This document shows, piece after piece, positions 56,315 through 64,000 of a stretch of 64,000 bases of DNA (position 1 is its first letter; each line of letters begins with the position of its first letter). The stretch is from Streptomyces diastatochromogenes (GTDB lineage Bacteria; Actinomycetota; Actinomycetes; Streptomycetales; Streptomycetaceae). The DNA is taken from positions 124,001 to 188,000 of the forward strand of contig NZ_MCGQ01000012.1 of assembly GCF_002242805.1 (NCBI RefSeq), given 5' to 3'. The translations under genes and the position numbers were made by a program. The notes beneath the pieces are model-generated. The model did no database searches and was not told the DNA's origin. It saw only the letters and a list, made by a program, of their open reading frames with translations.

Positions 56315-56986
56315 TCACAGCGTGGACCGCAGCCACTGCTCCACGCTCGCGATGTGCACGGTCGCCCAGGAACGGGCCGCCTCCGCATCCCGGTCGCGCA
56401 GCGCGGCCAGGATCGCCCGGTGCTCGCGCAGGGTGCGGCTGACCGCGTCCTCCTGGGTGAGCCCCCGCCAGATCCGGGCCCGGGTGGTGGGCCCTGACAG
56501 ACCGTCCAGCAGCGAGCACAGCACCGAGTTGCCCGCGCTCTGCACGATGCCCCGGTGGAACTCCAGGTCGCAGGCGACCAGCTCCTCCACCGAGGGCTCG
56601 GCGCCGAGCGCGTCCAACTGGGCCGACAGCGCGTCCAGTTGCTGCTCGCTGATCCGCGAGGCCGCCATCGCCGTCGCGGCCGGCTCCAGGATCCGGCGCA
56701 CCGCAAGGAACTCCAGCACCGTGTCGTCGCGGTGGAAGTCCACGACGAAGCTCATCGCCTCCAGCAGCAACTGCGGATCGAGGCTGGTGACATAGGTGCC
56801 GTCGCCCTGCCGCACGTCCAGGATCCGGATCAGCGACAGGGCCCGTACGGCCTCCCGCAGGGAGTTGCGGGACAGGCCGAGGTCGGCGGCGAGTTCGCTC
56901 TCCTTGGGCAGCCGGTCGCCCGGGCGCAGGGCACCGGAGACGATCATGTCCTTGATCTTCTCGATCGCCTCGTCGGTGACTGCCAT
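56315..56986 (-). CDS. GntR/FadR-family regulator at the end of the nucleoside operon
   Basis: A 223-residue regulator from ATG 56986 with gggagg upstream. HTH: LPKESELAADLGLSRNSLRE with a wing RQGDGTYVTSLDP; FCD domain with FLAVRRILEPAATAMAASRI and CDLEFHRGIVQSAGNSVLCS. It is the last gene of the minus-strand importer/salvage operon, behind a long palindrome. Control of this operon is inferred. Confidence 0.88.
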   Translation of the reverse strand: MAVTDEAIEKIKDMIVSGALRPGDRLPKESELAADLGLSRNSLREAVRALSLIRILDVRQGDGTYVTSLDPQLLLEAMSFVVDFHRDDTVLEFLAVRRILEPAATAMAASRISEQQLDALSAQLDALGAEPSVEELVACDLEFHRGIVQSAGNSVLCSLLDGLSGPTTRARIWRGLTQEDAVSRTLREHRAILAALRDRDAEAARSWATVHIASVEQWLRSTL

Positions 56987-57012
56987 GACCGGCCTCCCTG
57001 TCGCCCGCCCGA

Positions 57013-57041
57013 TGTGCCGAGACATCGGATGTCTCAGCACA
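57013..57041. promoter_or_regulatory. 29-bp extended palindrome, candidate GntR operator
   Basis: The core GAGACATC-G-GATGTCTC (57019-57035) is a perfect 8-1-8 inverted repeat; outer arms TGTGC (57013-57017) and GCACA (57037-57041) also match. It fills the gap between the deaminase stop (57042) and the GntR start, so likely mediates autoregulation from an internal promoter. Confidence 0.75.
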
Positions 57042-58361
57042 TTATGCGGGCACCACCTGCGGCTGTTCGGGTGAGAGCGCGAACGCGTCCAGCACCGCCC
57101 GCTCGTCCAGCGTGGTCAGCCGCCGGTCCCGCATCAGCACCCGGCCGTCGACCACCGTGTCCCGTACGTCCGCCGCGTGCGCGGCGTAGGCGAGCGTCGA
57201 CCAGGGGTCGTGCGCCGGCCGCAGATGCGGCGCGTCCAGGTCGAGCACGATCAGGTCGGCCCGCTTGCCCGCCTCCAGCGAGCCCAGCTGCTCGCCGAGA
57301 CCCAGCGCCCGCGCACCCTCCAGCGTCGCCATCCGTACGGCCTGCTCGGCGCCGACCGCCGTCGGGTCGCCGCCCGCCTTGTGCACCAGCGCCGCCTGCC
57401 GCACCGCGCCCAGCACGTCCAGCGTGTTGGAGCTGACCGCCCCGTCCGTGCCCAGACCCACGGTCACGCCCGCGCTCAGCAGCCGGGGTACCGGGGCGAT
57501 CCCGCAGCCCAGCTTCAGGTTCGAGACCGGGCAGTGGGCGACCGCCGTACCGGTACGGGCCAGCGCGGCGATCTCCGGTCCCGTCAGGTCGACGGCGTGC
57601 GCGAGCAGCACATCGGGTCCGAGCAGCCCGAGCGAGTCGAGGAGTTCCACGGGCCGCTTGCCGCAGCGCACCTCGACGGTGGCGACCTCGGTGGCGTTCT
57701 CCGCGGCGTGGATGTGGATCAGCGCCCCGAACTCCCTGGCCAGGGCGAAGGCTTCGGTGAGCTGGCCGGGGGAGAGGGTGTAGGCGGAGTGTGCGAAGAG
57801 CACCGGACGGTGTCCGGGCCGGGCCGCTCCGCGCGCCTGAAGGTCCCGGCGCGCCCAGGCGAGCCGGTCCTCGTACGCGATGCCGTCGGCCGGTTCCGGT
57901 ACGTCCATGAAGGTCGGCCCGGTGTGCAGCCGCCAGCCCGCCTCCCGGGCCGCCCGCTCGGCCGCCTCGTGGAACCAGTACATGTCCAGCGCCGAGGTCA
58001 CCCCGGCCCGGACGCTCTCGGCGACGGCCAGCCGTACGGCCGCCGTCACGTTCTCCGGCGACAGCAGTTCGACCTCCCACCTGAGCACCCGCTCCAGGAA
58101 GCCCTGGAGCGTGACGTCGTCGGCGCGGCCGCGCAGCAGGGTCATCGCGAGGTGGGTGTGGGTGTTGACGAGGCCGGGCAGGACGAGACAGCCCGCGGCG
58201 TCGATGGACTCGTTCGCCGTGAACCGCGTACACAGCTCCTCGGCGGGTCCGACGGCGACGATCTCCCCTTCGTGTACGGCGACCGCCCCGTCCCGTACGA
58301 CGGTTCCGGCGTCGTCCACGGTCAGCACGTCACCGCCGTGGACCAGCAGGTCGATGTTCAC
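57042..58361 (-). CDS. Amidohydrolase, MTA/SAH deaminase family
   Basis: A 439-residue metal-dependent deaminase from GTG 58361, overlapping the phosphorylase stop by 4 bases. Motifs: LPGLVNTHTHLAMTLLRGRA (His-x-His metal ligands), LIHIHAAENATEVATVEVR, VLLAHAVDLTGPEIA, AVAHCPVSNLKLGCGIAPVP and VGLGTDGAVSSNTLDVLGA. This set is that of 5'-methylthioadenosine/S-adenosylhomocysteine deaminases (TRZ/ATZ group). Together with a nucleoside phosphorylase and nearby mtnA, deamination of methylthioadenosine to methylthioinosine is the best guess; guanine or other purine deamination remains possible. Confidence 0.88.
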   Translation of the reverse strand: MNIDLLVHGGDVLTVDDAGTVVRDGAVAVHEGEIVAVGPAEELCTRFTANESIDAAGCLVLPGLVNTHTHLAMTLLRGRADDVTLQGFLERVLRWEVELLSPENVTAAVRLAVAESVRAGVTSALDMYWFHEAAERAAREAGWRLHTGPTFMDVPEPADGIAYEDRLAWARRDLQARGAARPGHRPVLFAHSAYTLSPGQLTEAFALAREFGALIHIHAAENATEVATVEVRCGKRPVELLDSLGLLGPDVLLAHAVDLTGPEIAALARTGTAVAHCPVSNLKLGCGIAPVPRLLSAGVTVGLGTDGAVSSNTLDVLGAVRQAALVHKAGGDPTAVGAEQAVRMATLEGARALGLGEQLGSLEAGKRADLIVLDLDAPHLRPAHDPWSTLAYAAHAADVRDTVVDGRVLMRDRRLTTLDERAVLDAFALSPEQPQVVPA

Positions 58362-59119
58362 GCCCAGGTCCCCTCGGCCAGCAGCCGCAGCGCCTCCAGG
58401 GACACCACCGCACCCCGCTCGACGCCCGCCGCGACGACTTCCCGGTGGGGGTTGTAGCCACCTGTCGAGAAAGGTGCCTCCGCGTCGACCAGTTCGTCGG
58501 CGTTGGCCCCGTCCACGACGACCACCCCGCCCGCGACGAGCCCGCGCAGCGAGGCCGTGACCAGCAGCGCGGACAGCTCCATCTCGATGGCGGCGAGCCC
58601 GGCACCCTCGTACGAGAACAGCGGGATCAGACCCGGCTGGAAGGCCGCCCGCGTCCACACGATCCCCCGGTGGTGCGGGGCACCCGCCTCCCGCGCGGCC
58701 CGCTGGAGCGCGAACACCGCCTCGGGCGACGCGTACGCCGGATACTCCGGCGGCAGCAGCTGGTGCGTGACCCCGTCGTCCCGTACGGCCGCCTCGGCGA
58801 TGACGAGGTCGCCGTCGGCGATCCCCGGCCTCATCGCACCCGCCGTACCGAACCGCAGGAAGGCCCGCACGCCGGCCTCGGCCAGCTCCTGGAACAGCAG
58901 GATCGCGCCCGGCGCCCCCACCCCGTGCGAGGCGACGACCACCGGCAGGCCCTTCCAGCTGCCGCTGAACACCCGGTACTCGCGGTGGTACGACACCTCC
59001 TCGGCGCCGTCCAGCAGCGCGGCCACGGCCGCCGCCCGGGCCGGGTCCCCGACCACGAGCGCGTGCGCCGGCAGCCCCGTGCGCGGTATGCGGGTGACGG
59101 GCAGCGGATCCTGCGTCAT
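58358..59119 (-). CDS. Nucleoside phosphorylase (PNP/UDP family)
   Basis: A 253-residue enzyme. Motifs: LVVGDPARAAAVAALLD (phosphate-binding GDPxR), VVVASHGVGAPGAILLFQEL, AFLRFGTAGAMRPGIADGDL, LAAIEMELSALLVTASLRG (Glu-Met-Glu ribose site) and VVVDGANADELVD. It belongs to the hexameric PNP/uridine-phosphorylase type. It overlaps the permease stop by ATGA and the deaminase start by GTGA, so all three are co-translated. Likely substrate methylthioinosine or another purine nucleoside. Confidence 0.88.
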   Translation of the reverse strand: MTQDPLPVTRIPRTGLPAHALVVGDPARAAAVAALLDGAEEVSYHREYRVFSGSWKGLPVVVASHGVGAPGAILLFQELAEAGVRAFLRFGTAGAMRPGIADGDLVIAEAAVRDDGVTHQLLPPEYPAYASPEAVFALQRAAREAGAPHHRGIVWTRAAFQPGLIPLFSYEGAGLAAIEMELSALLVTASLRGLVAGGVVVVDGANADELVDAEAPFSTGGYNPHREVVAAGVERGAVVSLEALRLLAEGTWA

Positions 59120-59985
59120 GCGGCGACTCCGGAGGTAGGGGTACGGCGGCGACGGCGGCGGGCCGTCGAGAGGAACAGGGCGGCGAGCGTGACGACGTAC
59201 GGCGCCGCGTCGGTCGCCTGCTGCGGCAGGCCCACGCCCTGGAGGCGGAAGCCGGCGGCCTCGGCGAGCCCGAACAGCAGCGCGGCGAGCAGCACCCCGA
59301 GCGGGGCGGCACGGCCCAGCATGACCGCGACGACGGCGATCCAGCCCCGGCCGGCCGTCATGTTCTCGGAGAACAAGGTGACGTTCCCCAGGGCGAGTTG
59401 GGCCCCGGCGAGTCCGCACAGCACCCCGGAGACCAGGACGGCACCGTATTTGTACTTGGCCGGGCTCACCCCGAGGGTGGCCGCCGCGTCCGGGGCCTCG
59501 CCGACCCCGCGCAGCCTGAGCCCCCACACGTGCCGCGACAGCAGCAGCGCCGCCACCGCGACCGCCGCCCATGCCAGATAGGCGAGCGGGGTGAAGCCGC
59601 CGACCAGCGGCAGCCCGGCCAGCGTCGGGTCGTCGAAGGTGCCCTGCACCCCGAACACCGTCCGCAGCAGGAAGCTGGTCAGGCCGACGGCCAGCAGGTT
59701 CATGGCGATGCCCAGCACGACCGCGTCGCCGCGCAGGGTCACGGCGCCCACCGCGAGGATCAGCGAGTACGCGGCCGCGGCGAGGGCCGCGGCGAGCACA
59801 CCGAGCCAGGGGCTGCCGGTGAACCAGCTGGTGGCCACCGAGGTGAAGCAGCCGAGCAGCATCATGCCCTCGAGCCCGATGTTGAACACGCCCGCCCGCT
59901 CGCACAGGGCACCGCCCAGCGCGGCCAGCAGGATCGGGGTCAGCGCGCGCAGCGCCGACATCAGCAGGTCGGAGTCGAGGAACAT
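59116..59985 (-). CDS. ABC transporter permease, nucleoside/BMP type (second)
   Basis: A 289-residue membrane protein from ATG 59985 with aaggagg. About eight helices. Family motifs of the BPD_transp_2 type: GALCERAGVFNIGLEGMMLL, TLRGDAVVLGIAMNLLAVGL, and TAGRGWIAVVAVMLGRAAPL. The start overlaps the previous permease stop (TGATG). Pairs with the permease at 59985-61025. Confidence 0.92.
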   Translation of the reverse strand: MFLDSDLLMSALRALTPILLAALGGALCERAGVFNIGLEGMMLLGCFTSVATSWFTGSPWLGVLAAALAAAAYSLILAVGAVTLRGDAVVLGIAMNLLAVGLTSFLLRTVFGVQGTFDDPTLAGLPLVGGFTPLAYLAWAAVAVAALLLSRHVWGLRLRGVGEAPDAAATLGVSPAKYKYGAVLVSGVLCGLAGAQLALGNVTLFSENMTAGRGWIAVVAVMLGRAAPLGVLLAALLFGLAEAAGFRLQGVGLPQQATDAAPYVVTLAALFLSTARRRRRRTPTSGVAA

Positions 59986-61025
59986 CAGACCGCCTCCTTT
60001 CTCCTGCGCCACAACCGGCTCGGGAAGCGCAGCCGGGCCGCCAGGAACACGATCACGATCGCCTGCAGCACCTGGGTCAGCTCGCGCGGCACCTCGGTGG
60101 TCCGCTCCATCGCGAGCCCGCCGACCTGGAGCACGGCGAAGAACAGCGAGGCGATCACCGTGCCCAGCGGAGCGGCGGCGGCCAGCAGCGCGGCCGTCAG
60201 ACCCGTCCAGGTGTAGCCGGGCGCGGTCAGCGAGCCGTCGACGAAGCGGTACGGGAAGCTCAACACCCCGATGGCGCCGACCAGTCCGGACAGCGCACCC
60301 GAGACCGCCATCAACTTCAGCGTCAGGCCCCGGCGTTCGACGCCCGCGTAGGCGGAGAAGCGCGGGTTGAGCCCGGTCATCCGGATCTCGTAGCCGAACG
60401 CGGTGCGCCGGTCGGTGAACCAGTAGCCGGCCGCCGCGAGCAGCACCAGGACCAGCCCGACCGTGACCGTCGAGTCACCGAAGGCGGGCAGCGCCACGCC
60501 CTCGGGCAGCGCGCGGGTCTGGGGGAGGCTGGAGCCGGGCTCCTTGAGCGGGTAGCGGGCCAGGTAGGAGGCGAGGGAGACCGCCGGGTAGCTCAGCAGC
60601 AGGCTGCTGACCAGCAGCGGGACCCCGAGGTGGTTCTCGCACAGGGCGGCCAGCGCGGCGTAGGCGGCACCGGCCGCCATCCCGGCGAGCAGTGCCAGGG
60701 TGACGGCGAGCGGGGCGGGCAGCGGGACGTACAGTCCGGTCACGGCCGCGGTGATCCCGCCGAGGACCAGCTGCCCGTCGCCGCCCAGGTTGATCAGCCC
60801 GGCGCGCAGCGGGATCGCCAGGGCGAGGGCCATGCCGAGCACGCTGGTGCCGGTGCTCAGCGTGGAGCCGATGCCGTCGGCGCCGAGCGCGCCGGTCAGT
60901 ACGGCCTGGTACGCCGTGACCGGGTCGGCGCCCGTGCCGAGCAGGAACAGCGCGCCGATGACGACGCCCGCGAGCACGGAGAAGGTGACGGGGGAGCGCA
61001 GGGCTCCCGATATCCGGTTGTTCAT
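59985..61025 (-). CDS. ABC transporter permease, nucleoside/BMP type (first)
   Basis: A 346-residue membrane protein with eight to ten helices: RAGLINLGGDGQLVLGGITA, CENHLGVPLLVSSLLLSYPA, FGYEIRMTGLNPRFSAYAGV and GYTWTGLTAALLAAAAPLGT are the conserved parts. Members of this group import nucleosides or purines. It follows the ATPase stop directly. Confidence 0.92.
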   Translation of the reverse strand: MNNRISGALRSPVTFSVLAGVVIGALFLLGTGADPVTAYQAVLTGALGADGIGSTLSTGTSVLGMALALAIPLRAGLINLGGDGQLVLGGITAAVTGLYVPLPAPLAVTLALLAGMAAGAAYAALAALCENHLGVPLLVSSLLLSYPAVSLASYLARYPLKEPGSSLPQTRALPEGVALPAFGDSTVTVGLVLVLLAAAGYWFTDRRTAFGYEIRMTGLNPRFSAYAGVERRGLTLKLMAVSGALSGLVGAIGVLSFPYRFVDGSLTAPGYTWTGLTAALLAAAAPLGTVIASLFFAVLQVGGLAMERTTEVPRELTQVLQAIVIVFLAARLRFPSRLWRRRKEAV

Positions 61026-61026
61026 G

Positions 61027-62550
61027 TCAGTCCACGGCCTCCACGGGCGCGGTTCCGCCGCCCGCCATCGCGAGGCCCAGCGACCGCTCGTCGGCCTCGT
61101 CCTTCTGGTACGTCGCCGTGATCCGGCCCTCGTACATGACCAGCACCCGGTCCGCCAGGCCCCGGATCTCGCTCAGCTCGGCCGAGACGAGCAGGACCGC
61201 GTGACCGGCGTCGCGGTAGGCGATCAGCTGGTCGTGGATGTTCTGGACGGCGCCGATGTCGACTCCGCGGGTCGGCTGCTCGACGAGCAGCAGCGGTGCC
61301 TCGTGCGCGAGTTCGCGGCCGATCAGCAGCTTCTGCAGGTTGCCGCCGGACAGCGCCGAGGCGGGCACCTCCTCGGTCGCGGCCTTGATGCCGAACCGCT
61401 CGACCAGCCGGCGCGCATGGGCGCGGACGGCGGCGGGCGACAGCAGGCCGCGGGAGGAGAGGGACGTACGGTGGTGGCCCATCGCGAGGTTGTCCGCGAC
61501 CGACGCCGCCGGCGCCGTACCGACCGCATGGCGGTCCTCGGGGACGTACGCGAGCCCGTGTGCGCGGCGCTCGGTGGCGGAGGCGTGCGTGATGTCCCGC
61601 CCCCGCAGGGCGACCCGTCCCGCGGTGACCGGCCGCAGTCCGGCCAGGGCCTCGACCAGTTCGCTCTGCCCGTTGCCCGCGACGCCCGCGATGCCGACGA
61701 TCTCCCCGGCGCGCACGGCGAGTTCGAGGTCCCGTACGCCGTCGGTGGCCAGGCCCGTCAGGTCGAGCACCACGTCACCCGGGGTGCCCGGGGCGTGAAC
61801 GCGGTCCAGCTCGACCGCGCGGCCGGTCATCGCGGCCGCGATCTCGTCGGCCGTCGTCTCCGCCGTGACCAGCCGGGCCACCACCCGGCCGTCGCGCAGC
61901 ACGGTCACCCGGTCGCTGCCCTCCAGCACCTCGCGCAGCTTGTGCGTGACGAGGATCACCGTACGGCCCTGTGCGGCCAGGGACTTGAGCACCGCGAACA
62001 GCGCGTCGGCCTCGGCGGGCGTGAGCACGGCGGTCGGCTCGTCGAGGATGAGGGTGCGCGCGCCCCGGTGCAGCAGCTTCAGGATCTCCACCCGCTGGCG
62101 CAGGCCCACGGGCAGGTCGCCGACCCGGGCGTCCGGATCGACGGCGAGCCCGTGCTCCTCGGCCAGCTCGCGCACCCGGCGCCGGGCGGCGGCTCGGTCC
62201 ACCAGGCCGAAGCGGCGCGGCTCGGCGGCGTACACCACGTTCTCGGCGACGGTCAGCGAGTCGAACAGCTTGAAGTTCTGGTGGACCATGCCGAGTCCGG
62301 CGGCCATGGCGCCGGCCGGACCGGCGAAGGACACCTCGCGCCCGTCGACGCGGATCGTCCCGGCGTCGGGGCGCTCCATGCCGTAGAGCACCGACATGAG
62401 CGTGGACTTGCCCGCGCCGTTCTCACCCATCAGAGCGTGGATCTCACCGGCCGAGACGGTCAGGTCGACGGAGTCGTTGGCGAGCGTGCCGGGGAACCGC
62501 TTGGTGATTCCCCGCAGCTCGACCGCCGGTTCAGCTTGCGGCGGGGTCAT
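61027..62550 (-). CDS. ABC transporter ATPase with two nucleotide-binding domains
   Basis: A 507-residue protein. Domain 1: Walker A GENGAGKST, Q loop VHQNFKLFDSLTVAENV, non-standard signature LPVGLRQRVEI, Walker B TLILDEPTAVLTP. Domain 2: degenerate Walker A GVAGNGQSEL, signature LSGGNLQKLLIGREL, Walker B-like LLLVEQPTRGVD. This asymmetric double ATPase is typical of sugar/nucleoside importers (RbsA/YufO type). It overlaps the BMP gene by 20 bases. Confidence 0.94.
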   Translation of the reverse strand: MTPPQAEPAVELRGITKRFPGTLANDSVDLTVSAGEIHALMGENGAGKSTLMSVLYGMERPDAGTIRVDGREVSFAGPAGAMAAGLGMVHQNFKLFDSLTVAENVVYAAEPRRFGLVDRAAARRRVRELAEEHGLAVDPDARVGDLPVGLRQRVEILKLLHRGARTLILDEPTAVLTPAEADALFAVLKSLAAQGRTVILVTHKLREVLEGSDRVTVLRDGRVVARLVTAETTADEIAAAMTGRAVELDRVHAPGTPGDVVLDLTGLATDGVRDLELAVRAGEIVGIAGVAGNGQSELVEALAGLRPVTAGRVALRGRDITHASATERRAHGLAYVPEDRHAVGTAPAASVADNLAMGHHRTSLSSRGLLSPAAVRAHARRLVERFGIKAATEEVPASALSGGNLQKLLIGRELAHEAPLLLVEQPTRGVDIGAVQNIHDQLIAYRDAGHAVLLVSAELSEIRGLADRVLVMYEGRITATYQKDEADERSLGLAMAGGGTAPVEAVD

Positions 62551-63583
62551 CGACCTTCAGCTTCCCGGCCACGATCTGGTCGCGCAGCGCCTTGACCTTC
62601 TCCAGGACGTCCTTGTGCCGGGCGATCACGCACTGGGAGGAGTCGACGCCGGCCTCCAGACCGGTGAGGCTGATGCCGCCCTCCTTCAGGCCGTACGACA
62701 CGGTCGTGCCGGCCTTGCCGCCGAGCACCGCGTCGATGCCCTTCTGCACGGCGACGTCCGTGCGCTTGATCACGTTGTCGACGACCGTGCCGGGCGCGGA
62801 GGGGCACTGGTTGACGTCGACGCCGTACGCGAAGGCACCCTTGGCCTTGGCCGCCTCGAAGACGCCGTAGTTGCCGGCCGCCGCGGCCGCCATGAGCTGA
62901 TCGGTGCCCTTGGCGAGCAGCGAGTTGGCCTGCTCCTTGGCGCGGGCCGAGTCGTCGAACGGGGACTGGCCGCCGACGAAGCGGGTGGCCGTCTGCGTCT
63001 TGGCGGCGACCTGCTCGGCGCCGGCCGCGAACGGGTCGCTGTAGCGGCGGAACTGGGGCGTGTCCAGCACGTCCACCGCGCCGACCTTGCCGGACTTGCT
63101 GAGCAGGCCCGCCTCGGCGCCGGCGAGGTAGACACCCTCGTGCTCACGGAAGACCGCGCAACCGACGTTGGCGAAGGTCTTGGTGGTGCAGGCGTCGATC
63201 ATCAGGAACCGCTGCTTCGGGTGCGCCTTGGCCTGCTGGGCGACCAGGTCCGCGAACTCGAAGCCGACGAGCACGATCACGTCCGGCTTCGCCTCGACGG
63301 CGGCCTGCACGTTCTGCTGCTGCGAGGCGGTGTCGGTGGACTCGTACACCTTCTGCGTGCCGTCGTGCGCCTTGGCCGCTTCCTTGATGCCGGTGACCGC
63401 GAGCTTCAGGAACTCGTTCTGGCCCACGGCGTCCGGGGTGACCAGCGTGAACGACGTTCCGCTGCCGCTCTTGCCGCTCGCCGAAGTGTCGTTCTTGGCG
63501 GCGGCGTTGCAGGCGGTGGCGGCGGTGGCCAGGATCGCGGTGGCGGCGGCGAGGCGCAGGGCGCGGCGGTGTCTGCGGTGCAT
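62531..63583 (-). CDS. BMP-family substrate-binding lipoprotein
   Basis: A 350-residue lipoprotein. The signal LRLAAATAILATAATAC ends in a lipobox Cys (Cys25), followed by a linker (AAAKNDTSASGKSGSG). The BMP fold: NVQAAVEAKPDVIVLVGFEF, RFLMIDACTTKTFANVGCAV, GVYLAGAEAGLLSKSGKVGA, and FAYGVDVNQCPSAPGTVVDN. Four or more Cys in the mature part is unusual. BMP proteins bind purine nucleosides. ATG 63583 has ggaagg, which may be masked (see 63589-63642). Confidence 0.9.
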   Translation of the reverse strand: MHRRHRRALRLAAATAILATAATACNAAAKNDTSASGKSGSGTSFTLVTPDAVGQNEFLKLAVTGIKEAAKAHDGTQKVYESTDTASQQQNVQAAVEAKPDVIVLVGFEFADLVAQQAKAHPKQRFLMIDACTTKTFANVGCAVFREHEGVYLAGAEAGLLSKSGKVGAVDVLDTPQFRRYSDPFAAGAEQVAAKTQTATRFVGGQSPFDDSARAKEQANSLLAKGTDQLMAAAAAGNYGVFEAAKAKGAFAYGVDVNQCPSAPGTVVDNVIKRTDVAVQKGIDAVLGGKAGTTVSYGLKEGGISLTGLEAGVDSSQCVIARHKDVLEKVKALRDQIVAGKLKVDDPAAS

Positions 63584-63588
63584 GGGGA

Positions 63589-63642
63589 CCTTCCGGGGAT
63601 GCTTCCGGGATACGGGAAGGCGCGCTCCGCCGTTGGAGCGCG
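63589..63642 (-). promoter_or_regulatory. Candidate attenuator between leader peptide and BMP gene
   Basis: On the minus strand a hairpin with perfect 8-bp arms (63642-63635 and 63628-63621) is followed by CCTTCC (63620-63615), which is complementary to the BMP Shine-Dalgarno GGAAGG (63594-63589). The hairpin lies 41 bases after the leader stop. It has no T tract, so control may be at translation start or at Rho access. This is inferred from sequence only. Confidence 0.5.
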
Positions 63643-63682
63643 TGAGGGTGAAGGGGAAGAAGGACGCTGAGGGTGGGACGGG

Positions 63683-63748
63683 TCAGCGTCGACAGCCGTC
63701 GCCGGCGCAGCGGCCGAAGTCGAGGAAGCGGCGTTTGGTGAGCAGCAC
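63683..63748 (-). CDS. Leader peptide (21 residues) upstream of the importer operon
   Basis: A 21-codon ORF from GTG 63748 to TGA at 63683, with a perfect aaggagg four bases before the start. The peptide begins MLLTKRRFLDFGR and ends GDGCRR, with Cys codons at positions 14 (TGC) and 19 (TGT). The RR.hhD..R...C(R) pattern is that of the short 'putative leader peptide' ORFs I remember in actinomycetes upstream of cysteine and sulfur genes. It sits 99 bases before the BMP lipoprotein on the same strand. Likely a cysteine-sensing upstream ORF. Confidence 0.75.
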   Translation of the reverse strand: MLLTKRRFLDFGRCAGDGCRR

Positions 63749-63773
63749 GCGTCCTCCTTCGCCGTCTCGCCCA

Positions 63774-63815
63774 GCGGAATGCGGGTGTTGGCCTGCGGAA
63801 TGCAGGTGCTGGACT
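63774..63815 (-). repeat. 21-bp tandem iterons upstream of leader ORF
   Basis: Two adjacent 21-bp units at 63774-63794 and 63795-63815 match at 18 of 21 positions; the shared core is GCGGAATGC.GGTG. Two helical turns per unit suits a regulator bound side by side. They lie 26 bases upstream of the leader start on the minus strand, in the likely promoter region. Confidence 0.7.
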
Positions 63816-63916
63816 GTAACACCCGTTTCCAGCCACCCGTCATACCGTCTCGAACTGTGGTTCTACGAGGTCATGTACGGTGGCGGACACCATCGGAACA
63901 TCAGGAGTGTCCCGTT

Positions 63917-64000
63917 ATGTCCCAGGAACTGCGTACCGTCGACTGGACCGGTACCGGTATCGCACTCATCGACCAGACCCTGCTTCCGCATCGCACCGAG
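63917..64000 (+). CDS. mtnA: S-methyl-5-thioribose-1-phosphate isomerase MtnA (5' end only)
   Basis: Only 28 codons are in the window, from ATG 63917 with caggag upstream. The sequence TVDWTGTGIALIDQTLLPHR matches the N terminus of MtnA, which isomerises 5-methylthioribose-1-phosphate to methylthioribulose-1-phosphate in methionine salvage. The gene is divergent from the importer operon, 168 bases from the leader peptide start. Confidence 0.75.
   Translation, partial: MSQELRTVDWTGTGIALIDQTLLPHRTE

Follow-up and report, generated by a model that had tools for sequence, protein, structure and literature searches.

A probable cysteine-sensing leader peptide ahead of a predicted methylthio-nucleoside salvage operon in Streptomyces

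The 64,000-nt stretch of Streptomyces diastatochromogenes DNA analysed here (the window) raises the question of what a 21-codon ORF with two cysteine codons is doing in front of an operon for a BMP-type importer. A first-pass annotation had described the ORF, with its perfect aaggagg and two Cys codons, as a cysteine-type leader. We confirmed these elements from the sequence, found the ORF conserved among relatives, and judge the annotation to have been right about the leader and its likely cysteine signal. The spacing of the peptide motif needed correction: it is RR..D..R.....CR and not RR..D..R...CR, with five residues between Arg13 and Cys19 and an extra Cys directly after Arg13. In the window, 99 nt separate the leader stop from the BMP gene start. 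Our preferred reading, to which we give a probability of about 70%, is that the ORF senses cysteine as the leader of an operon for salvaging methylthio-nucleosides of the MTA type, in which premature termination is relieved by a ribosome at a UGU codon. The features are collected in Table 1.

Table 1. Features of the window and of the same locus extended beyond the right window edge (L118); coordinates of short elements in the window were counted by eye
Feature	Position	Strand	Basis or remark
GntR/FCD-family regulator, operon end	56315..57040	-	PF00392, PF07729
Amidohydrolase, predicted MTA/SAH deaminase	57042..58361	-	PDB 4f0r
PNP/uridine-phosphorylase-family enzyme, predicted methylthioinosine/purine nucleoside phosphorylase	58358..59119	-	PF01048
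ABC permease 2	59116..60012	-	PF02653
ABC permease 1	59985..61025	-	PF02653
ABC transporter ATPase	61027..62550	-	PF00005
BMP/PnrA-type substrate-binding lipoprotein	62531..63583	-	PF02608, PDB matches
BMP gene Shine-Dalgarno GGAAGG	63589..63594	-	sequence; GGAAGG in most printed loci
Spacer rich in C and poor in G (C 51%, G 18%), candidate stretch for Rho loading	63595..63682	-	base composition
Hairpin P2, perfect 8 bp, 6-nt loop, no U-run following	63621..63642	-	sequence
Hairpin P1, GACGCUGA (63690-63683, holds leader stop) with UCAGCGUC (63670-63663)	63663..63690	-	MFE structure, helix score
Leader ORF, 21 codons, MLLTKRRFLDFGRCAGDGCRR	63683..63748	-	GTG start, read from sequence
Sensor Cys codon UGU (Cys19), six codons past conserved Arg13	63692..63694	-	sequence and codon table
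First Cys codon UGC (Cys14)	63707..63709	-	sequence and codon table
Leader Shine-Dalgarno AAGGAGG	63753..63759	-	sequence
Two tandem 21-bp repeats (63812-63792, 63791-63771)	63771..63812	-	in presumed 5' UTR
-10-like hexamer TACAGT (TAnnnT), putative operon promoter	63813..63818	-	sequence
Conserved element GAACCACAGTTCGAGAC	63847..63863	-	28 nt upstream of -10-like hexamer
Start of divergent mtnA (methylthioribose-1-phosphate isomerase), cut by window edge	63917..64000	+	start codon by eye
Third Cys leader MTTPRAKALRMPRMRRCTGARCRG, before mtnDCB	L118:5583-5657	-	past right window edge
Second Cys leader MKTPLLVRRLYVDLLRSTTASCR, before ribose-type ABC importer and mtnK	L118:5809-5880	+	just past right window edge

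The first-pass annotation had named a lack of conservation in related species as what would refute its reading. Instead, 55 of 58 named loci and 28 of 28 other census loci (two overlapping sets) have a leader ahead of the orthologous BMP operon. The named loci come from a genome scan with the BMP protein in which the best 80 of 94 loci were retained, 58 of them Streptomyces-type (L009-L068 minus two Kibdelosporangium loci); in the genus census, 29 of 295 genomes, our own included, carry a BMP ortholog. Some leaders had to be entered individually: L023/L105 and L115-L117 as separately read patterns (the latter three by hand), and L009, L066 and L093 as separate additions. No start codon was assigned in L060/L114. 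A pattern search found no convincing leader at the Kibdelosporangium and remoter loci (L065, L068-L088; L065 and L068 were checked by eye as well), which lie outside these counts. The leader Shine-Dalgarno matches at all seven bases in 52 of 84 leaders and at six in another 16; with so strong a site in most leaders, leaderless initiation was rejected. Over 19 codons of the leader, pairwise differences by codon position were 2.73/2.47/4.84, and the excess at third positions indicates that the frame is translated. An ungapped comparison of the 57 nt past the leader stop gave differences at about 34 places.

The exceptions are informative. In L013 and L031 (S. acidiscabies and S. niveiscabiei) the leader is missing while the importer operon and the second leader are intact, and this argues against the leader being essential. 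In L061 (Streptomyces graminilatus) the leader lacks any Cys codon and the ATPase and both permease genes are absent too, which we read as joint decay. Elsewhere the Cys codons outlast their surroundings: they are kept where the central Arg has become His (L051, L052, L063, L109) and where RRFLD has been lost (L023/L105), and at L115-L117, where the BMP protein is about 67% identical, the ORFs are of other sequence and richer in Cys. These patterns bear on whether the ORF encodes a working small protein, for instance a Cys-containing binder of metal or thiol. Conservation of amino acids beyond Cys (RRFLD, GR) would fit such a product; however, the diverged operons at L115-L117 retain Cys and not the remaining sequence, the sensor Cys keeps to one of its two synonymous codons, which protein function does not require, and the same place and codon recur in leaders of other sequence. 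We therefore regard a working small protein as very improbable.

A codon table was made for 81 of 84 leaders, 58 of them distinct, leaving out L115-L117, whose sequences depart from the R.....C pattern. Cys19 is present in all 58 distinct window-type leaders and is always encoded by UGU, whereas Cys14, also present in all 58, is split between TGC (33) and TGT (25); the background in the operon genes is 109 UGU among 885 Cys codons (12.3%). In nearly all leaders examined, the sensor Cys lies six residues past a conserved Arg (D..R.....C; R.....C in the third leader). Read by eye in the family and own-genome sets, this place holds UGU in 27 of 27 NF042934 loci (nine genomes), in 30 of 30 NF042933 loci (30 genomes across the class Actinomycetes) and in 21 of 22 readable NF042936-type loci having a Cys there; the last set comprises 25 loci, most below the family cut-off, with L196 and L214 unreadable and L209 without a Cys at that place. 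UGU also stands there in 46 of 46 second leaders and in 37 of 38 third leaders, our own included. The Cys two residues before the sensor is UGC in 21 of 24 NF042933 loci, and UGC is frequent at other Cys codons of the same leaders (L129-L155, L160-L214). Third leaders commonly have UGU at other places too (86 UGU versus 37 UGC overall). The leader sets share members, such as the own-genome rhodanese leader, and we attach no formal probability to the bias because related sequences are not independent.

One tRNA reads both UGU and UGC, with UGU read through wobble by tRNA-Cys(GCA), so selective charging of isoacceptors cannot explain the codon choice. Several Arg codons in the leader, and the existence of antibiotic-sensing leaders in Streptomyces, could be taken to mean that the signal is arginine or general translation trouble of the antibiotic type, not cysteine. 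Yet Arg is replaced by His, Pro, Gly or Ser in some loci where the sensor Cys is kept, and all three leader-led units of the island described below contain sulfur genes; we give this alternative hardly any weight. The UGU rule does not extend to every Cys leader, since UGC dominates at the Cys codons of the Rhodobacterales cysS leader in the excerpted account of PMC8632094. We found no mention of a UGU-type codon rule for Actinobacteria in the literature searched, whose coverage was partial.

Why would a cysteine-sensing leader stand before a BMP-type importer? The first-pass annotation called the genes a nucleoside importer operon and took the location as a use outside sulfur metabolism. The BMP importer is indeed there, but the operon is not a plain one: among its products are an enzyme resembling MTA/SAH deaminase and a purine-type phosphorylase, and it adjoins an island of mtn genes. 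The best PDB match of the amidohydrolase is 4f0r, an MTA/SAH deaminase (E 1.1e-80), and no NCBIfam model is above cut-off among the matches listed; 4dyk and 4gbd, also matched, are entries that we take to be P. aeruginosa PA3170. For the phosphorylase, the best PDB group bears the names 'uridine phosphorylase, putative' or 'purine nucleoside phosphorylase' and has a VDG motif that the window enzyme shares, and the best NCBIfam model, uridine phosphorylase, is below cut-off. The best-matching solved structures are presumably Plasmodium enzymes, and 1q1g, one of these entries, is, we assume, a complex with methylthio-immucillin whose enzyme accepts methylthioinosine. We also take the window phosphorylase to be of a different subfamily from the P. 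aeruginosa methylthioinosine phosphorylase.

Beyond the right window edge, L118 continues the island with mtnA (TIGR00512, 424.9 bits versus a cut-off of 279), mtnC (TIGR01691, 229.9 versus 128.1), mtnB (TIGR03328, 173.2 versus 137.05) and mtnD (ARD-family, PF03079), and with a second ABC importer, of the ribose type, behind which lies mtnK (TIGR01767, 395 versus 275). In the flanks examined, mtnA, mtnB, mtnC and mtnD were matched in 58 of 58 loci, the binding protein of the second importer in 46 of 58 and mtnK in 39. The operon thus belongs to a methionine-salvage island and not outside sulfur metabolism, so that cysteine control is to be expected there and fits the known use of such leaders. 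Given the deaminase, the phosphorylase and the content of the island, the BMP importer probably carries MTA or a similar methylthio-nucleoside. A point against our reading is that an MTA phosphorylase is encoded elsewhere in the genome (294.3 versus 274.85), so that the deaminase does not provide its sole route; no own-genome match to the MTA/SAH nucleosidase model TIGR01704 passes cut-off.

A comparable route has been described in Pseudomonas aeruginosa, where, in the excerpts of PMC6302742, MTA is deaminated to methylthioinosine, on which a methylthioinosine phosphorylase then acts. As far as that source goes, the two systems share a homologous deaminase, a phosphorylase and an mtnA neighbour, and they differ in that the window operon has a dedicated BMP-type importer and a cysteine leader. 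Within the partial texts covered, searches on MTA uptake or salvage in Streptomyces, methylthioribose uptake, BMP-type MTA importers and methionine-salvage leaders returned no paper on this system.

The BMP leader has company. The second Cys leader is present in 46 of 46 loci having the second binding protein and contains a single Cys, always UGU; the third was found in 37 of 58 loci and in our own genome, and was not found in 21 of 58. Against the model NF042934, the second leader scores 27.3 bits alone (cut-off 27) and 25 bits in the genome scan. Three parallel leaders are thus available for comparison within about 4 kb. Ten further own-genome matches to NF042934 (L119-L128) were seen. Eight of them precede a cysteine dioxygenase, a ThiS-family protein, a nitrite/sulfite-reductase-like protein, SsuE, a rhodanese, two LLM monooxygenases and a flavin reductase; behind the leader of the ThiS-family gene a cysteine-synthase-like ORF follows, as read by eye. 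The other two precede a GST-like protein and an ABC permease. Across the 11 own-genome NF042934 matches, L119 is without a Cys at the sensor place and the other ten have UGU.

Upstream of the leader, a scan for sigma-70 promoters found none. The -10-like hexamer is of the TAnnnT type described for S. lividans (PMC8079986, as excerpted); the hexamers that we listed were matched in 43 of 70 distinct upstream sequences, and other TAnnnT forms were seen by eye. The element GAACCACAGTTCGAGAC, a partial palindrome (GAAC-N4-GTTC) between the divergent mtnA and BMP promoters, occurs with small changes in nearly all printed loci, L115-L117 included, and is absent in L060. It is a putative regulator site, perhaps for the GntR regulator of the operon. 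The iterons of the first-pass annotation are present in the window as 21-bp repeats with 18 of 21 bases identical, but are not generally conserved: a tandem 21-mer with at most 6 mismatches was found in 7 of the 15 loci with enough 5' UTR to score, and in many other loci the presumed leader 5' UTR is only about 35 nt. Being poorly conserved and within the presumed 5' UTR, the repeats were rejected as operators.

How might the leader act on the genes behind it? The first-pass annotation proposed translational attenuation of the mycobacterial type, in which leader or spacer pairs with the BMP Shine-Dalgarno until ribosome stalling frees it. Several observations point that way. CCTTCC at 63620-63615 (-) is complementary to the GGAAGG of the BMP gene, adjacent CCTTC...GAAGG hairpins were noted by eye in L044, L046 and L051, and with the ribosome placed at the first Cys instead of at the stop, Shine-Dalgarno accessibility rose by more than 0.05 in 16 of 71 sequences (it fell in 4); there is, moreover, the M. 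smegmatis precedent as cited in the excerpts of PMC13236596. In constrained folding of all 71 distinct sequences, however, the mean unpaired probability of the Shine-Dalgarno was unaffected by ribosome position (0.30 with no ribosome, 0.30 at the stop, 0.32 at the first Cys, 0.29 at the last Cys), and shuffled spacers gave the same (0.29-0.31, in 24 of the 71 sequences). In the window alone, a ribosome lifted it from 0.10 to 0.24-0.26, equally at the stop or at either Cys. The spacer-Shine-Dalgarno duplex, at -12.2 kcal/mol, was weaker than in swaps (-13.0) and shuffles (-14.1), pairing of the leader ORF with the Shine-Dalgarno was inside the swap range and weaker than in shuffles, and many loci lack CCTTCC. 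Kinetic effects can escape equilibrium folding; with this limit, opening of the Shine-Dalgarno by a stalled ribosome is unsupported, and we consider it unlikely as the mechanism. Of the leader-hairpin-antiSD unit that the annotation suggested looking for upstream of homologous operons, the leader and the hairpin are conserved and the CCTTCC/GGAAGG pairing is not generally so. Pairing of the leader ribosome-binding site with the spacer, no better than in swaps, was rejected.

The hairpins themselves fared better. The perfect 8-bp hairpin noted in the first pass (P2, 63642-63621) was confirmed, and by eye 46 of 65 distinct sequences have a hairpin of at least 6 pairs ending 12-33 nt before the Shine-Dalgarno. 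Its mean score was 17.2 against 11.7 in shuffles (65 sequences; L060, L107 and L114-L117 left out), and compensatory forms such as CACGCCC/GGGCGUG (L015) occur among 20-mers that were picked for best pairing, which biases the pairing upward. The second hairpin, P1, spans the leader stop. Over 69 distinct ends of 84, its mean helix score was 15.0, with 40 shuffles reaching at most 12.6 and 60 swaps at most 14.6; matched changes include AGCUGA/UCAGCU (L024, L056, L097) and GGCUGA/UCAGCC (L101), and duplexes between leader ORF and spacer were stronger than in all 30 swaps. In part of the loci the best P1 helix is short or displaced. At the second leader P1 did not show up (12.7 observed, 13.4 in shuffles, 13.0 in swaps), and so it is not a general part of such leaders. 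Because the spacers vary in length, RNAalifold on a 65-row MAFFT alignment was uninformative, and Rfam returned for 62500-64000 just two chance-level matches, elsewhere.

These hairpins could be imagined as terminators of an intrinsic-like kind without a U-run, P1 (or P2) ending transcription unless P1 is blocked by a ribosome that has stalled at UGU. In favour of this, P1 has its 5' arm beginning in the codons directly past UGU and including the stop, and P2 is a strong, widely conserved hairpin. Against it, a search for intrinsic terminators found 0 sites in 63500-63920, no U-run follows P1 or P2 in the printed spacers, and P1 is short or displaced at some loci; we hold this alternative to be quite improbable, more so than opening of the Shine-Dalgarno.

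The C/G ratio of 2.81 in the window spacer is reached by 0.02% of 89-nt windows over the 64 kb on both strands, and 71 distinct spacers average C 52% and G 22%, with C/G ranging from 1.4 to 3.4. When the units were compared, C/G was 2.2 at the BMP unit and 2.32 and 2.15 before the other two leader-led units, versus 0.68-1.0 before the mtnA, deaminase, GntR and PAC2 genes, the deaminase and GntR stretches being mainly coding. Upstream of mtnD, the median C/G is 2.39 with the third leader (37 loci) and 1.76 without a detected leader (21), so that the bias is weaker there but still present. A C-rich, G-poor stretch past the leader, which is what a Rho attenuator would have, is thus present by composition, with P1 and P2 inside it. 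Together with the stop-spanning hairpin, the C-rich spacer points to premature termination, perhaps Rho-dependent.

Premature termination relieved at UGU, the reading that we prefer, would work as follows. With charged tRNA-Cys plentiful, the ribosome would pass UGU, end at UGA and leave; P1 could then fold over the stop codon, the C-rich spacer would lie free, and transcription would stop prematurely, probably by way of Rho. Under cysteine shortage the ribosome would stall at UGU, three codons before the stop, covering P1's 5' arm together with the beginning of the spacer and staying near RNA polymerase, and transcription would continue into the genes for the importer, phosphorylase and deaminase. 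Imported MTA-like nucleosides could then feed, through MtnA, MtnB, MtnC and MtnD, sulfur into methionine and from there into cysteine. A stall at UGU would cover only the first few spacer bases, so the link from stall to Rho is one that we infer.

The leader has the marks of known cysteine-responsive attenuators: a short ORF, translated to judge from its codon-position differences, with Cys near the stop, and sulfur genes in the operon, namely the predicted deaminase and phosphorylase beside the mtnABCD set. Against NF042933, the Ms5788A family of Cys-rich leader peptides, it scores 16.8 bits (E 0.0041), below the cut-off of 45. It resembles that family in its colinear KRR..D..R.....CR and in the place of the sensor Cys past the Arg; UGU at this Cys, which the window leader has, is a feature found in this analysis and lies outside the curated model. 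NF042934 ('putative leader peptide', cis_reg_atten; cut-off 27) gave no match to the window leader at E 0.1, while the ortholog leader at L060 scores 26.3 bits. With NF042934 leaders, several of which stand before sulfur-related genes, the window leader shares size, the R...D..R core and the UGU sensor.

Canestrari et al. are said to have identified, in 2020, polycysteine short ORFs as cysteine-responsive attenuators in M. smegmatis. The window leader differs from Ms5788A and the mycobacterial polycysteine attenuators in having two separated Cys codons and no Cys run, in being led by a Shine-Dalgarno with a presumed 5' UTR of about 58 nt where the mycobacterial polycysteine leaders are leaderless, in preceding a different operon, and in that release of the Shine-Dalgarno is unsupported for it. 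The M. smegmatis precedent is also cited in the excerpted text of PMC9094748. Candidate Cys leaders were reported earlier from Mycobacterium, P. acnes and B. longum (Seliverstov et al. 2005, PMC1262725, in excerpt) and proposed for mycobacterial cys operons, without terminators and with candidate pyrimidine-rich Rho sites. In common with them, as that excerpt presents them, the window leader has Cys codons near the stop, no terminator and pyrimidine-rich candidate Rho sites behind; those leaders precede cys/cbs genes and their polyY motifs are unconserved, whereas the window type keeps its C over G bias in 71 spacers. The Rhodobacterales uORFC-8-2 before cysS (PMC8632094, in part) is likewise a short ORF with two conserved Cys codons and a proposed ribosome-mediated attenuation, but it has an intrinsic terminator with a U-run and mostly UGC, in contrast to the window leader with no terminator pattern and a UGU sensor. 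Eight leaders are reported for S. lividans in the available part of PMC8079986, one before metNIQ and none of the window type.

Overall, the leader is conserved and very probably belongs to a known class of bacterial cysteine switches, in a new and sensible place. It hints at an MTA-type substrate for a BMP importer that the family models leave unnamed. A wider proposition, which we regard as quite possible and would not yet call probable, is that Cys leaders of the Actinomycetes sense at a fixed place almost only through UGU, the codon being the sensor, and that three such leaders in Streptomyces join the uptake of methylthio-nucleosides, the uptake of methylthioribose-type sugar and mtnDCB under one cysteine signal. 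The UGU rule is the point most worth testing: the near-fixed codon offers a one-base (UGU/UGC) test of whether decoding speed selects regulatory codons. For Streptomyces, the leader would mean that cysteine governs both methionine salvage and the uptake of methylthio-nucleosides.
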